A DNA stretch of 64,000 nucleotides from positions 248,001 to 312,000 of the forward strand of contig NZ_JACXAA010000008.1 of the NCBI RefSeq assembly GCF_014699035.1, in the 5' to 3' direction. Below the pieces are notes generated by a model, which made no database searches, had not been told where the DNA came from, and saw only the letters and a program-made list of their open reading frames with translations. Shown one piece after another: positions 11,367-17,720 of this stretch. The position numbers and the translations under genes were made by a program. Each line of letters begins with the position of its first letter. Position 1 is the stretch's first letter. Origin of the DNA: Spirosoma validum (GTDB taxonomy: Bacteria > Bacteroidota > Bacteroidia > Cytophagales > Spirosomataceae).

Positions 11367-13070
11367 ATGACCAATTCCGAAATCGTTGACCTGCTCGAAC
11401 TAACCGGCCGGTTGATGGAACTTCACGACCGGGACGCATTTAAGACCCGATCGTTCCAGACAGCCGCCTTTAATTTAGATAAATCCACCGCCGACCTCGC
11501 CAATTTACCGGTTGAGGAACTGGTGAAATTACCAGGCATTGGAAAATCCGTCGCTCAGAAAATTCGGGAGATCGCCGAGACGGGCCGTTTGACCGATCTC
11601 GATGAATTGCTTGCGCAAACACCCGAAGGTGTCCTGGATATGTTTCGCATCAAAGGATTGGGCGTCAAGAAAGTGCGTACCCTCTGGCACGAACTGGGCA
11701 TCGATAATCTCCGCGATTTACAACAGGCAGGCGAAAATGGTGAAATTGCCAAAATCAAAGGATTTGGGGCCAGTACGCAGGAGAAGATTCTGGCAGCTCT
11801 GGAATTTTTACAGGAGCAACAGGGTAAAGTCAGAATGGATAAAGCGGCTCTGATAGCCAATCTGTTACGTGATGAACTAACGAAACATTTCGATCGGGTT
11901 GAAATCAGCGGGCAAGTTCGCCGAAAAGCACAGGAAGTCGATACGGTGCAATTGCTGATACAAACCAGCGATCCTGTATCAGCTATGCTAACGCTTAGCC
12001 AATTGCCTAACCTGACGCAAAACGAACTTGACTCGTCGCCATTTGTCTGGCGGGGTAAACTCAACGGCTTTGATGTGCTGGTCGAGTTGCTGCTGTATCC
12101 CGCCGAACAGATTGACCGTCAGTTATTTATTCAAACGGCCGGTGAACCGCATCTTCAGCAGGTCGGAGTAGGGGGCGTAACGTTACTGCAGGTGGCTTAT
12201 GCCTCGCCTGACGTAACAGAGCCCGCTATCTACGAGCGAGCGGGTTTACCGTATATCGTGCCTGAAATGCGGGAGGATGACTTTGCTTTTCGCTGGGCCA
12301 GTCGCCATCAGAACGATGAACTCGTTACGTGGGACGACCTGCGCGGTACGCTTCACAATCATAGCACCTGGTCGGATGGTAAGCAGTCGATAGCCGCTAT
12401 GGCTGCTTATTGTCGTGAGCTGGGTCTAACCTATTTTGGTATTGCTGATCACTCGAAAACCGCTACGTATGCCCACGGCCTGAGTGTTGAACAGATTCAG
12501 GTCCAGCAGGCTGAAGTTGATCAGCTTAACCAGAGTTTCGGTACGGACTTTCGCATTTTCAAAGGGATTGAATCCGATATTTTGGGTGATGGTTCGCTGG
12601 ATTACGACGACGCTACGTTAGCTACGTTCGATTATGTAGTGGCTTCGGTGCATCAAACTCTGACCATGTCGCTCGAAAAAGCGACGACGCGGTTATTGCG
12701 GGCCATCGAAAACCCGTACACGACCATTCTTGGGCACCCAACAGGTCGGTTATTACTCGCTCGTGAAGGCTATCCCATCGACCACCGCGCCATCATCGAT
12801 GCCTGCGCCGAGCACAACGTAGTGATTGAAATCAACGCCAGTCCTTACCGGCTCGACATCGACTGGCGCTGGATCGATTACGCGATCCAACAAGGCGTCA
12901 TGCTAAGCATCAACCCCGACGCACACGATCTGGCTGGTTTATTGGACATGCATTACGGCGTCGCCATCGGGCGTAAAGGCGGTCTAACCAAAGCCATGAC
13001 GTTTAATACGTTAACACTGGAAGAGATGAACGAATATCTGCAACAAAGGCGGGCACAGATAGGTAAGTAG
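11367..13070 (+). CDS. polX: PolX family protein (polymerase site degenerate, PHP domain intact)
   Basis: A 567-residue PolX protein with the usual order: helix-hairpin-helix (LVKLPGIGKSVAQKI, residues 53-67, and a second near 95-105), a polX nucleotidyltransferase region (about 150-320) and a PHP domain (about 326-560). PHP metal ligands are visible: LHNHSTWSDG (329-338), ADHSK (360-364), GIESDI (400-405), ASVH (426-429), GHPTGR (456-461), NPDAH (516-520). The polymerase motif GSxRRx(6)DxD is instead GQVRRKAQEVDTVQ, keeping one aspartate (D192) and losing the second. It may therefore act only as a PHP 3'-5' exonuclease or phosphoesterase. Confidence 0.9.
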   Translation: MTNSEIVDLLELTGRLMELHDRDAFKTRSFQTAAFNLDKSTADLANLPVEELVKLPGIGKSVAQKIREIAETGRLTDLDELLAQTPEGVLDMFRIKGLGVKKVRTLWHELGIDNLRDLQQAGENGEIAKIKGFGASTQEKILAALEFLQEQQGKVRMDKAALIANLLRDELTKHFDRVEISGQVRRKAQEVDTVQLLIQTSDPVSAMLTLSQLPNLTQNELDSSPFVWRGKLNGFDVLVELLLYPAEQIDRQLFIQTAGEPHLQQVGVGGVTLLQVAYASPDVTEPAIYERAGLPYIVPEMREDDFAFRWASRHQNDELVTWDDLRGTLHNHSTWSDGKQSIAAMAAYCRELGLTYFGIADHSKTATYAHGLSVEQIQVQQAEVDQLNQSFGTDFRIFKGIESDILGDGSLDYDDATLATFDYVVASVHQTLTMSLEKATTRLLRAIENPYTTILGHPTGRLLLAREGYPIDHRAIIDACAEHNVVIEINASPYRLDIDWRWIDYAIQQGVMLSINPDAHDLAGLLDMHYGVAIGRKGGLTKAMTFNTLTLEEMNEYLQQRRAQIGK

Positions 13071-13071
13071 A
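13053..13071 (+). repeat. Direct repeat, proximal copy (3' end of polX)
   Basis: GCACAGATAGGTAAGTAGA, spanning the codons AQIGK-stop of polX plus one base. An identical 19-base copy is at 15158-15176, on the far side of the RloA/RloB cassette. Confidence 0.9.
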
Positions 13072-13083
13072 GGACAACAATAA

Positions 13084-13130
13084 AAAAACGACGTAACTAT
13101 GAGAATTTTTCTCATAGTTACGTCGTTTTT
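13084..13130 (+). terminator. Perfect 22-bp palindromic terminator after polX
   Basis: The arms at 13084-13105 and 13109-13130 are perfectly complementary over 22 bp with a 3-base loop. One arm starts with five A and the other ends with five T, so it can stop transcription from either side. It insulates polX from the RloA gene. Confidence 0.9.
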
Positions 13131-13173
13131 CAGTTAAGACGTAGATTTTATAATCTTTTACGTTTTGAATCTT

Positions 13174-14454
13174 ATGCTTATTGAATTCAGCGTCGGCAAT
13201 TTTCTTTCCATCAAAGACCGACAAACTCTTCGTTTGGATGCCTCGTCAATTACAGAACACCGTGACCAGTTGATTGATGCCGGACGCTACAAGCTGCTAC
13301 GTAGTGCTGTTATTTATGGAGCCAACGCAAGTGGTAAGTCAAATATTCTGAGAGCCATTGAAACGTTAAATCGCATTGTAGTTACTTCAGCAGCAAGTTC
13401 CTCTACAACTGAAATTGAGGTCGAACCATTTCTACTTAGTACTGAAACCGAAGGAAAACCGAGTGCTTTTGAAATACTGTTTTTGCTTGACGGAATTCGA
13501 TATCGCTATGGTTTTGAGATTGATAGAAAAGCAGTAAAAGCGGAATGGCTGTTTATGGCCCGTAAAGAAAAAGAAAAGCCGCTTTTTCTTCGGGAGGCAA
13601 ATGGGATTGAAGTGTTTAAAGATTTTAAAGAGGGCAACGGGTTAGAAGAAAGAACCCGTGATAATGCATTATTTCTGGCTATTTGCGACCAATTTAATGG
13701 TGTGATAGCGAAGCGAGTAATAGCTTGGTTCAATAAATGGTTACCCATATCTGGTTTAGGCCACGACAGGTACAGAAAATTTCTATTTAATTTATTAGAT
13801 GAACCAGTAGCGAGAGAAGATTTAGTTGGTTTGGTAAAGCAGCTTAATTTAGGATTTTCCAATATTCTGCTTCAAAAAGAAAAGATAGACATCGACAATG
13901 AATTCTTGTCAAGATTTTCGGAGGAAAATAAACATAAGTTTTTTGATTTAGTCGAAGGGGAGCTTACTTCAGGTATAAAGACGATTCATAAGAAATATAA
14001 TTTTGATTATGAACCTGTTGAGAATGTAATCTTTGATTTGGGTATGCATGAATCTGCAGGCACTAACAAATTTTTCGACTTATTAGCTCCTATTTATTTA
14101 ATCTTAACCAAGGGCGGAATTTTAATAGTTGATGAACTTGATGCTAAACTACATCCATTGATGACGCAAGCTATTATTCGACTGTTTAACAATCCTGAAC
14201 TAAATCCTAATAACGCTCAATTAATTTTTGCTACACACGATACGAATCTATTATCTGCAAAACTGTTTCGGCGCGACCAGATTTACTTTACTGAAAAAGA
14301 CCGGTACGGTGCGACCAGTTTGTACTCGTTAGTTGAATATCAAGAAGAAGACGGAACGAAAGTACGTAAAGACCGGTCCTTTGAGGAGGATTACATTCGG
14401 GGACGTTACGGCGCTATCCCCTTCATTGGCGATCTATCGAAAATGGCATCTTGA
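13174..14454 (+). CDS. RloA/AbiLi-type AAA15 family ATPase (putative phage defence)
   Basis: A 426-residue SMC/ABC-like AAA ATPase of the COG1106/RloA type. Motifs: N-terminal MLIEFSVGNFLSIKD, Walker A GANASGKSN (49-57), signature-like SAGTNKFF near 294, Walker B ILIVDELD (316-323) followed by AKLHPLM, and the switch His in FATHDT (352-357). The C-terminal FEEDYIRGRYGAIPF is characteristic of RloA/AbiLi. It is paired by a one-base overlap with an RloB-like partner. Such pairs (AbiL; compare AriA-AriB of PARIS) are anti-phage abortive systems in which the ATPase senses infection. ATG 13174 replaces a TTG at 13165. Codons are visibly A+T-rich compared with polX. Confidence 0.85.
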   Translation: MLIEFSVGNFLSIKDRQTLRLDASSITEHRDQLIDAGRYKLLRSAVIYGANASGKSNILRAIETLNRIVVTSAASSSTTEIEVEPFLLSTETEGKPSAFEILFLLDGIRYRYGFEIDRKAVKAEWLFMARKEKEKPLFLREANGIEVFKDFKEGNGLEERTRDNALFLAICDQFNGVIAKRVIAWFNKWLPISGLGHDRYRKFLFNLLDEPVAREDLVGLVKQLNLGFSNILLQKEKIDIDNEFLSRFSEENKHKFFDLVEGELTSGIKTIHKKYNFDYEPVENVIFDLGMHESAGTNKFFDLLAPIYLILTKGGILIVDELDAKLHPLMTQAIIRLFNNPELNPNNAQLIFATHDTNLLSAKLFRRDQIYFTEKDRYGATSLYSLVEYQEEDGTKVRKDRSFEEDYIRGRYGAIPFIGDLSKMAS

Positions 14455-15131
14455 TGGCTCGGAAAGCGAAAATTGATAATTCCAAACTGAAACGGTTTGC
14501 TCGCAAAGAGACGAGCCGTAAACAGGATTTTCGAGCTAAACGACGTTTTTTTCTAATTGTGTGCGAGGGTGCTAAAACGGAGCCTAACTACTTCCGAGGC
14601 CTTGAAAAGAATTTGCCGCCAGGCGTTGTCAATACAATTGAATTAGCCATTGAAGGCGAAGGTCACAACACGTTAACCGTCATACAGGATGCAATCAATG
14701 CCAAAAAACGACTGGAGAATCAGGGAAGGATAATAGACGAAGTTTGGACTGTATTCGACCGGGATAGTTTCCCTGATCAAAATTTTAATAACGCGATTTT
14801 TAAAGGGCAAGCTCTCGGCGTTCATTGCGCCTGGACAAACGAAGCTTTTGAATTATGGTATCTACTTCACTTCCAGTTCTTCCAAAATGGAATGTCTCGT
14901 ACTGATTATAAAGCAGTTATTGAGCGAGAACTGTCACAAAGAATAGGACAGCCTTATAATTACGAGAAGAACAACAAGGATATGTTTACGCTTCTTCAGA
15001 AGTACGGCGATATAAAGCAAGCTATGGCACGAGCTAAAAATCTGGAAGCTGTCTTTGCTGGACGAACCGATTATGCGAATCACAACCCGTGTACGAAAGT
15101 ATATGAGCTACTAGAGAAATTAGGCTTTTAA
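14454..15131 (+). CDS. RloB/AbiLii-type Toprim-like effector
   Basis: A 225-residue RloB-family protein. A basic N-terminus (about 30 residues) precedes FFLIVCEGAKTEPNYF, whose Glu38 corresponds to the first acidic residue of a Toprim-like site; VFDRDSF (D102, D104) provides the DxD pair; NEAFELWYLLHF (129-140) is the family's signature. The likely role is the nuclease or nucleotide-processing effector controlled by the upstream ATPase. The start ATG overlaps the RloA stop by one base (TGATG), implying translational coupling; a TTG three bases earlier is the alternative. Confidence 0.82.
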   Translation: MARKAKIDNSKLKRFARKETSRKQDFRAKRRFFLIVCEGAKTEPNYFRGLEKNLPPGVVNTIELAIEGEGHNTLTVIQDAINAKKRLENQGRIIDEVWTVFDRDSFPDQNFNNAIFKGQALGVHCAWTNEAFELWYLLHFQFFQNGMSRTDYKAVIERELSQRIGQPYNYEKNNKDMFTLLQKYGDIKQAMARAKNLEAVFAGRTDYANHNPCTKVYELLEKLGF

Positions 15132-15157
15132 CAGTAAAGCACCTTCAACAGCATCAA

Positions 15158-15176
15158 GCACAGATAGGTAAGTAGA
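15158..15176 (+). repeat. Direct repeat, distal copy (polX tail remnant)
   Basis: Identical to 13053-13071. In the polX reading frame 15143-15175 reads LQQHQAQIGK-stop, against LQQRRAQIGK-stop in the intact gene. The copy is therefore a slightly diverged duplicate of the polX 3' end with no gene attached. Confidence 0.88.
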
Positions 15177-15308
15177 TTCTCAACTATAAATTAATTGTCA
15201 GTTAAGAATCTGGAAAAATAGGGTAAATCAGGCGGATTAACCCTTTAGCTTATTGACAGGTAGCTCCGTTAAGTAAGAGCGGCTTCCGCAGTTTCTTAAT
15301 CCGGCTAT

Positions 15309-17720
15309 ATGCGCCTTATCGGCTTACTGTGGCTATCGTTTTTTCTACTCAACGGAACGATGGCCCAACAACGAACAACCTCAAACGGACCGTCGCCAAC
15401 ATTTTCGGCGACGGGTTATGTGCGGGATGCCAAAACGGGTAAACCGATTCAGAGCGTCAATATCGTTGTGTTGAATGTATCGAAAGGCTACGTAACGGCA
15501 AAAGATGGGTTTTACATCGTTCAGCTTCCTCCTGGTAAATATATTTTGCGTTTCTCGCACGTAGGCTACCGGCCCCGCCAGGATACAATCTCACTGCAAC
15601 AAACGCTCTTCCGTGAAATTACGATGGAAGATGATGCGAAGGATCTGGAGGAGGTAGTCGTCACGAGCGAGACGCCCGACCGTAACGTACGAAAGGTTGA
15701 AATCGGCGTGTCGCAATTGACGATACGTAGCATCCGGCGGATTCCGCCGTTAATGGGCGAAGTCGACATTGTTCGGAGTTTGCTGCTGCTTCCAGGCGTG
15801 ACGACGGTAGGAGAGGGGGCACCCGGATTTAACGTTCGGGGCGGCAGTGCTGATCAGAACCTGATCCTGTTCGATGATGCGCCCGTATTCAATTCGAGTC
15901 ACCTGATGGGTTTTTTCTCGGTGTTCAATCCCGACGTTGTACGCGACGTAACGCTGAACCGGGGGGGCATAGCGGCTGCATATGGCGGGCGGGCGTCTTC
16001 GGTGCTGGATGTGAAAATTAAGGAGCCTGATGCCGAAAAATGGGGTATCAATGGTGGAATTGGGCTGATTTCGAGCCGGTTGGGTGTAGAAGGGCCAATC
16101 ATTAAAAATAAACTTTCGTTTCTGGCGGCAGCACGGGCGTCGTTCAGTGATTTTCTGTTCAAACTGGCTCCTCCGAACCTGATTGGCACGAAAGCCAATT
16201 TCTACGACGTAACGACCAAACTTAAATATCAACCCAGCGAGAAACACACGATCACCCTGACGGGCTATCTGAGTAAAGATGTTTTCAAACTGGCGTCCGA
16301 TTCGCTGTCAGGGCAGGAGATCAATGCCTCGTCGACGGAATTCAATTACCAGACGATGAATGCGGTTCTCCGCTGGAATTACTTCATGAGCAAGCAGGTG
16401 AATCTGGCTACGTCAGTTATTCTGAGTCGTTACCGGGCCGATCTGTCTTCTGCTGACTCGGCCAATGCTTTTCAGCTTGAATCAGGAATATTGCATCGAC
16501 AAGTCAAATCCGATTTGACCTACACGCCAAACGAAAATCATCAATGGCAGGCAGGAGTAAGCGCCATCGATTATCTGGTTCAACCTAACACTAGAACGCC
16601 CGGTCTGTTCTCCAACGTACTGCCAATTGACCTTGCCCGCGAACGAGCCTATGAACTGGCAGCCTACATCCAGGACGAGTGGAATCTCAATGCCGACGTT
16701 TCGGTAATTGCCGGACTACGCTATTCAGCGCTATTGAATCGGGGGCCAGCCACAGTACGAACGTATCAGGAAAACGGACCCCGGCAGGACGAAACCGTTA
16801 CGTCGGTGCAGAACTACGAAGCCAGTAAAACGTACCACTCGGCGGGTGGGTTGGAACCCCGACTGGCCGTACGCTGGTCAGTCGGCGAGGGAAAGGCCAT
16901 TAAGGTAGGTTACAGCCGACTGCGTCAGTACATTCAGCAGGTGACGAACACAACAGCTGCGTTACCGACCTCGCGCTGGCACCTAAGTGATACGCATACG
17001 AAACCAACGATTGCTGATCAATGGTCCTTAGGGTACTTCCATAATACGTCTGACAATGCCATCGAAGCCTCGGGGGAGGTGTATTACAAAACCCTGATGA
17101 ATGCCATTGATTATAGGGATGGGGCTGAGCTGCAACTGACGCAAGCAGTTGAAACGCAGATCGTACAGGGCCATGGCCGGGCGTACGGAGTTGAAGGTTT
17201 GCTACGTAAAAACAAGGGTCGCTGGACGGGTTTCATGAGCTATACCTACGCCCGTACGTTCCTGACCATGAACAGCCCCTACATCAGTGAGCAGGTAAAC
17301 AACGGAAATCCATATCCGGCTAATTACGATAAACCGCATACTCTGAACGTACTGGCGACCCATCGACCTACAACCTGGTTCAGTATGTCACTGAATTTTA
17401 CCTATAGCACAGGCCGCCCAACGACACAGCCATCCGCCATTGCCAGAGTAGCGGGTGTACTTGTACCGATTTACCTGGATCGGAATCAGCAGCGGGTGCC
17501 TGCTTATCATCGGCTCGATTTTTCGATGACATTTGAGCAAAATCCACTCAAGAAAAAACGGAACCAAAGCAGCTGGGTTTTCTCCATTTATAATGTTTAT
17601 GCCCACAAAAACGCCTATTCAGTCTTTTATAAATTGAGTCCGGCTTCGTCCGCGGATGCGTATAAACTGTCCATTTTTGGAACGGCCTTTCCGTCGCTCA
17701 CCTACAATTTTAAATTCTAA
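15309..17720 (+). CDS. TonB-dependent receptor with carboxypeptidase-like N-domain
   Basis: An 803-residue outer-membrane receptor. A signal peptide (to TMAQ, residue about 20) is followed by a CarboxypepD_reg-like domain (GYVRDAKTGKPIQSVNIVV to about 115) and a plug domain with GFNVRGGSADQNLILFDDAPV (about 170-195). The C-terminal beta-barrel runs to a terminal aromatic (YNFKF). Substrate is unknown; the partner DUF4249 lipoprotein begins at the last base of the stop codon, so the pair is translationally coupled. This gene order is typical of Bacteroidota nutrient-uptake pairs distinct from SusC/SusD. ATG 15309 gives the signal peptide. Confidence 0.9.
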   Translation: MRLIGLLWLSFFLLNGTMAQQRTTSNGPSPTFSATGYVRDAKTGKPIQSVNIVVLNVSKGYVTAKDGFYIVQLPPGKYILRFSHVGYRPRQDTISLQQTLFREITMEDDAKDLEEVVVTSETPDRNVRKVEIGVSQLTIRSIRRIPPLMGEVDIVRSLLLLPGVTTVGEGAPGFNVRGGSADQNLILFDDAPVFNSSHLMGFFSVFNPDVVRDVTLNRGGIAAAYGGRASSVLDVKIKEPDAEKWGINGGIGLISSRLGVEGPIIKNKLSFLAAARASFSDFLFKLAPPNLIGTKANFYDVTTKLKYQPSEKHTITLTGYLSKDVFKLASDSLSGQEINASSTEFNYQTMNAVLRWNYFMSKQVNLATSVILSRYRADLSSADSANAFQLESGILHRQVKSDLTYTPNENHQWQAGVSAIDYLVQPNTRTPGLFSNVLPIDLARERAYELAAYIQDEWNLNADVSVIAGLRYSALLNRGPATVRTYQENGPRQDETVTSVQNYEASKTYHSAGGLEPRLAVRWSVGEGKAIKVGYSRLRQYIQQVTNTTAALPTSRWHLSDTHTKPTIADQWSLGYFHNTSDNAIEASGEVYYKTLMNAIDYRDGAELQLTQAVETQIVQGHGRAYGVEGLLRKNKGRWTGFMSYTYARTFLTMNSPYISEQVNNGNPYPANYDKPHTLNVLATHRPTTWFSMSLNFTYSTGRPTTQPSAIARVAGVLVPIYLDRNQQRVPAYHRLDFSMTFEQNPLKKKRNQSSWVFSIYNVYAHKNAYSVFYKLSPASSADAYKLSIFGTAFPSLTYNFKF

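Follow-up and report, generated by a model that had tools for sequence, protein, structure and literature searches.

A putative AbiL-type defence cassette in the polX tail of Spirosoma, with a duplicated gene end and a palindromic candidate operator

The RloA/RloB cassette behind polX

The window, i.e., the whole stretch of 64,000 nucleotides analysed here, belongs to a genome of the genus Spirosoma (G000:C38:248001-312000) and holds a two-gene cassette of the RloA/RloB (AbiL) type at the 3' end of polX. The order is polX, RloA, RloB, a second copy of the polX tail and a gene for a TonB-dependent receptor, all on the + strand. The polX gene (11367..13070), the last codons of which are the insertion target, encodes a PHP-domain DNA polymerase/exonuclease of family X; its product matches NCBIfam PRK08609 (9.4e-122) with 407 bits, slightly below the cut-off of 426, and HHH and PHP domains were matched as well.

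RloA (13174..14454), with its likely start at ATG 13174, is an ATPase of the AAA_21/ABC family that matches the PADLOC AbiLi profile (2e-94) over residues 1-423 of 426, and Pfam AAA_21 (1.5e-41). The gene for the Toprim-like RloB (14454..15131) overlaps that of RloA by one base, and its product matches Pfam RloB (PF13707, 5.9e-44) and PADLOC AbiLii (6.6e-28), which places an AbiLii-type partner directly downstream of an AbiLi-type ATPase. The catalytic acidic residues of Toprim-type proteins comprise a glutamate and a DxD motif, and E38, D102 and D104 of RloB are invariant in 10 of 10 aligned RloB proteins. An earlier sequence-only reading of this DNA had called the pair AbiL-type, with overlapping genes, and was correct on both counts; its AAA15 ATPase is indeed an ATPase, however, the domain name does not stand, since AAA_21 and not AAA_15 passes the Pfam cut-off. 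Judged by these profile matches, the cassette is a predicted defence pair of a known kind, i.e., the AbiL type.

AbiL is described as a bicistronic system of abortive infection whose effector is of the TOPRIM_OLD type, and TOPRIM_OLD toxins are described as being neutralized by AAA proteins (PMC10440598). In common with AbiL of Lactococcus (AbiLi/AbiLii) and with the RloA/RloB pairs of type I restriction loci, the Spirosoma cassette consists of two genes, for an AAA ATPase and an RloB/Toprim-like protein. It differs from them in representing a Bacteroidota subfamily, in occupying the polX tail by itself, outside any restriction locus or plasmid, and in carrying a TGAGA-N5-TCTCA palindrome. In the PARIS system (AriA/AriB), too, one gene encodes an ATPase sensor and another a Toprim effector. 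AriA keeps AriB inactive, and AriB cleaves tRNA (PMC12409363). However, AriA is not the closest relative of RloA, which scores far better with the AbiLi profile (314 bits) than with that of AriA (133 bits, 4.5e-39), and the effector here is RloB (PF13707). A sequence search against solved structures gave no useful match, with the solved PARIS chains unmatched at the thresholds used, and the predicted structure model of RloA is poor, with a predicted local distance difference test score (pLDDT) of 60.

RloB was matched in 34 plasmid records, every one of them below 60% identity, and viral contigs yielded three distant relatives. A second, distant RloB type (33-36% identical) is carried by a Spirosoma plasmid (G019, contig C2). 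In Arcicella rosea (L090/L109), an internal TGA stop lies in the RloB gene of an otherwise conserved RloAB locus, and in G035 (L086, L087; contig as in S. utsteinense LMG 31447) RloB is split over two contig ends, which an assembly break or a repeat within the gene may explain.

The cassette deviates in base composition from its surroundings. The G+C content of 13072-15157 is 39.0%, compared with 47.9% for the whole window and 51.5% for polX, and the G+C content at third codon positions is 33-40% in RloA and RloB, compared with 55-56% in the polX and TonB-receptor genes; the local values pointed out in the sequence-only reading, 20 of 60 at 14041-14100 and 35 of 60 at 12841-12900, were reproduced. 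RloA and RloB fill 13174-15131, and other sizeable open reading frames there lie only inside or antisense to them. The same reading had seen no integrase inside the cassette, in agreement with the list of open reading frames, in which RloA and RloB alone are of size. An Rfam search of 12500-15600 returned nothing at gathering scores.

Duplication of the polX tail

A direct repeat of 34 nt connects the proximal, polX-attached tail (13038..13071, + strand) with a distal copy (15143..15176, + strand) that was delineated by repeat comparison and by comparison with empty sites. The two are identical at 27 of 34 positions, and their last 19 nt (13053-13071 and 15158-15176) match throughout; translated, they read LQQRRAQIGK-stop (proximal) and LQQHQAQIGK-stop (distal), both as a polX C-terminus. 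The 19-base identity and the two translations had already been reported from the sequence alone and are confirmed. Rather than recurring at many unrelated loci, the 19-mer is confined to these two positions in the 8.22-Mb genome, also when two mismatches are allowed. The distal copy adjoins a resident intergenic region (15177..15308, + strand) resembling the sequence that directly follows polX in genomes with an empty site, and behind it lies the TonB-dependent receptor gene (15309..17720, + strand), which by domain search and genus comparison is the usual neighbour of polX and not cargo.

All 36 genomes of the genus have polX, and in 32 of them it is followed by the same TonB-receptor gene; G013, G019, G024 and G026 have another neighbour after polX and were left out of the count of empty and filled sites. 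Among the 32 sites, 28 are empty, with a gap of 39-191 bp between the polX stop and the TonB start, and four are filled, with RloAB in G000, G008 and G033 (contig as in S. telluris) and with unrelated cargo in G004. Relatives with a single tail and no cassette, and other cargo between duplicated tails, were both predicted in the sequence-only reading; the 28 empty sites speak against the opposite outcome, in which all relatives carry the cassette. The G004 insert comprises 4.1 kb of other cargo (L051 11837-15056, + strand), including a piece of a DDE transposase (DDE_Tnp_4, 14011-14412) and a secreted-looking protein of 443 residues without a Pfam match at E 0.01. The three remaining inserts hold almost solely RloAB, and within the parts scanned none of the four inserts showed an integrase or recombinase.

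Stretches of up to 9.5 kb behind polX (a few shorter, at contig ends) were scanned for tail copies in the 36 genus genomes and in 60 of the 186 other genomes of the family. The filled genomes scored 80, 32, 19 and 16, compared with a control maximum of 14 (96 genomes). A copy above control is thereby present at exactly the four filled sites and at none of the other 92 of 96 polX loci, the empty site of G023 reaching 14, i.e., control level. Repeat length differs among the inserts, and the tail breakpoints fall, by eye, within about 30 nt of one another along polX. Across the genus genomes, a 20-letter signature of the polX tail had no exact occurrence outside polX and the distal copies of G004 and G008, and allowing one mismatch added a handful of unrelated places; in viral contigs it gave a single, unrelated match.

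The resident end is recognizable in two of the inserts. In G004, the distal tail ends like that of the empty sister G005 and is followed by almost the same intergenic sequence, whereas the end attached to polX differs; in G008, judged against the empty relative G003, it is again the distal tail that has the resident end and the polX-attached one that is altered. These two inserts have therefore altered the last polX codons and displaced the old end. The earlier proposal that an island replaces and duplicates the end of the gene is supported by this and refined, the distal copy carrying the resident end in G004 and G008; in G000 the two tail ends are identical, so that the resident copy is indistinguishable there. 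In G008 and G033, the RloB frame runs into the distal polX tail, which gives the stop (...KKEDES-MNDYLQQRRENVRKRA and ...KKEDES-MTDYLQRRRTKIRKKL), unlike in G000, where RloB ends at its own stop. The TonB-receptor gene of G008 and G033 (L055, L080) aligns in two or more pieces, possibly reflecting frameshifts or indels beside the insertion.

Duplicated tails or flanks as a general trait of RloAB were considered and rejected. From 89 RloAB loci, 86 were kept, L095 being left out (same genome as L080) and L131, L158 and L165 lacking RloA; the flanks of 83 of these were compared, with two genomes entered twice (L090/L109, L092/L161), and only the three polX sites and L127 exceeded the maximum of 14 for mismatched pairs (332 control pairs); the tail duplication is thus a property of the polX site. 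At L127, RloAB is flanked by a direct repeat of 17 nt, with one copy 250 bp upstream of RloA and the other 184 bp after RloB; this match lies at the edge of the compared stretch and may continue outside it. A second Spirosoma site for RloAB, between ispF and an amidohydrolase gene, is occupied in G035 and G019; 30 of 36 ispF loci were fetched, 29 of which are empty, the 30th (G035) carrying RloAB. No flank repeat was found at this site above control in G019, or by eye in G035. In G019 (L084 4382-5919), two nucleotidyltransferase/HEPN-like gene pairs, named by eye, are located directly upstream of ispF.

Origin of the inserts

We consider it probable that a horizontally acquired two-gene cassette of the AbiL type entered the last codons of polX by one reciprocal exchange, with the RloAB function and the palindrome control proposed below. 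The incoming DNA would have borne a stretch matching the polX tail, and a single exchange would have joined it to the chromosome, the product being polX with a cassette-supplied end, the cassette, a second tail with the resident end, and an untouched region before the next gene. As no recombinase was found, we infer the mode of entry, and the exchange may have been driven either by a trans-acting site-specific recombinase or by a crossover at short homology.

Integrative elements that enter the 3' ends of tRNA genes and other genes restore their target. The polX inserts resemble such elements in their direct repeats, in the restored target gene and in the presence of more than one cargo at one site, but differ in that no integrase was seen and that repeat length varies between inserts. 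A larger element with a tyrosine or serine integrase might accordingly have used the polX tail as attB and later lost the integrase and most of its length by deletion, leaving RloAB between attL and attR; this is a serious possibility, though on the unlikely side. It would explain the direct repeats at the 3' end of a restored gene, the different cargo at the same point in G004 and the clustering of the repeat ends, by eye, in a stretch of about 30 nt of polX. Direct repeats at the gene end and empty sites in relatives (28/32) are what an integrase-borne island would leave, however, the scanned parts of the four inserts did not show the encoded integrase expected of it, three of these inserts carry almost only RloAB, and the 60 family genomes from outside the genus have no tail copy within 9.5 kb. 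Among the literature matches listed, there was no mention of polX as an integration site.

The variable repeat length, and the RloAB loci elsewhere without repeats above control, would be accommodated by chance capture, i.e., illegitimate or short-homology recombination of linear DNA after uptake, in which the repeats are homology used once and the spot is merely tolerant of insertion. We regard this as unlikely, given that all four filled polX sites have the duplication, that their breakpoints lie close together and that two types of cargo are involved.

The number of insertions was addressed by phylogeny. In the polX tree, G004 is sister to the empty G005 and G033 to the empty G003, with G000 apart; in the RloAB tree, G008 and G033 are joined (97/96), and G000 is grouped with cassettes of other sites (90/94). 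Monophyly of the polX-site RloAB is recovered in 4% of bootstrap trees, and the approximately unbiased (AU) test does not reject it (p 0.099). On these results two separate insertions at polX, i.e., the G004 cargo and RloAB, are secure, and three or more are likely. A single ancient RloAB insertion with vertical descent and many exact losses by tail recombination is quite improbable: the tail repeats would permit exact loss and the AU test leaves room for one clade, but many losses would be required over the 28 empty genomes, the position of G000 and the bootstrap trees disagree with it, and G004 requires an insertion of its own regardless.

The palindrome upstream of RloA and proposed function

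Between the proximal tail and RloA lies a perfect inverted repeat with 22-bp arms (13084..13130) that holds an operator-like palindromic core, TGAGAATTTTTCTCA (13100..13114); for neither does a strand apply. The core is conserved upstream of RloA in Bacteroidota. Within 150 bp of RloA, TGAGA-N5-TCTCA is found exactly in 69 of 81 loci and with one mismatch in 78, compared with 2 and 6 of 3343 background windows, most of them coding; these counts exclude L161, L109, three loci in which RloA is truncated or the upstream DNA is short, and G035, in which RloA and RloB are on separate contigs. Loci of the other RloB types of the genus have it in one of eight cases, with one mismatch. The exact pattern occurs once in the 8.22-Mb genome and its reversed control not at all, so the count shows no more than this; a host regulon with many sites was rejected on account of the single exact copy.

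One copy is present in 36 loci, including those of Spirosoma, and exactly two in 41, with the centres 38-39 (13 loci), 47-51 (20) or 61-62 (8) apart; one further two-site locus has a spacing of 103 (200-bp stretch, exact cores). The spacing classes are 11-12 bp apart, with a resultant length of 0.82 at a period of 10.5 and the highest value at 11.5 among five periods tested; the 81 loci are related by descent, and the classes therefore do not amount to 41 independent events. The proximal copy is located 10-36 bp before the RloA start codon, and a TAnnTTTG box, which we take to be the Bacteroidota -7 element, occurs within 70 bp upstream in 60 of 81 loci, a count made without a background control. 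A strict palindrome pair was found in one of 395 genomes of the phylum, in an apparent repeated coding segment and not at an RloAB locus; as a scan made without knowing which of these genomes carry RloAB, it speaks to specificity only. Viral contigs, for which the same range of spacings was covered, have at least 120 palindrome pairs, and the 80 stretches listed show other centres, near-continuous spacing and no match to RloA or RloB.

These properties fit a cassette-specific candidate operator, double-stranded and read by a dimer, the paired sites of two-site loci being on one face of the DNA. The Spirosoma repeats have long arms, of up to 22 bp, and a strong fold (-40.5 kcal/mol, z -10, for RNA of 13068-13173), and a terminator scan reports the repeat 13084..13130 on the - strand only, which could suggest that the palindrome ends transcription of the upstream gene as an intrinsic terminator, or forms a hairpin in RNA, and is not an operator. 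That explanation is hard to credit, as the sequence of the TGAGA/TCTCA core is itself conserved, loci with two sites hold three discrete spacings, the proximal copy stands close before the start codon, and complementarity outside the core is weak across loci; the long Spirosoma arms may act also as a terminator. A bicistronic arrangement with a palindrome at the promoter is typical of autoregulated type II toxin-antitoxin operons, however, RloA is an ATPase and not a recognised DNA-binding antitoxin. Among the literature matches listed, drawn from a library without most subscription journals, no account of such a cis-element for AbiL or RloAB came up.

By analogy with the known family, RloA would sense infection and restrain RloB, and freed RloB would cut nucleic acid, tRNA in the PARIS analogue, and thus halt phage growth. 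A protein that reads the palindrome probably sets expression, and the simplest arrangement would be autoregulation by RloA or RloA-RloB. A further-reaching proposal, which we hold to be doubtful, is that the polX tail is an attachment site for integrase-less cassettes that trade ends with polX by means of a recombinase encoded elsewhere, and that those with RloAB bring a palindromic operator recognised by their own product. Such a cassette would give polX a new end and a hairpin and could end its own last gene at the former polX stop, and in many Bacteroidota the operator would be a pair of sites about a whole number of helical turns apart.

The cassette is a defence pair of a known kind at an unusual, recurrent address, and its footprint is well defined. 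Defence genes and other cargo have recurrently entered a core DNA-repair gene of one genus at this point, and in the clearest cases the resident end is distinguishable from the incoming one. The most useful added observation is the palindrome, by which the AbiL family gains a concrete, testable cis-element; if the polX tail does serve as an attachment site in the manner outlined, RloAB cassettes would carry their own expression control to any site.
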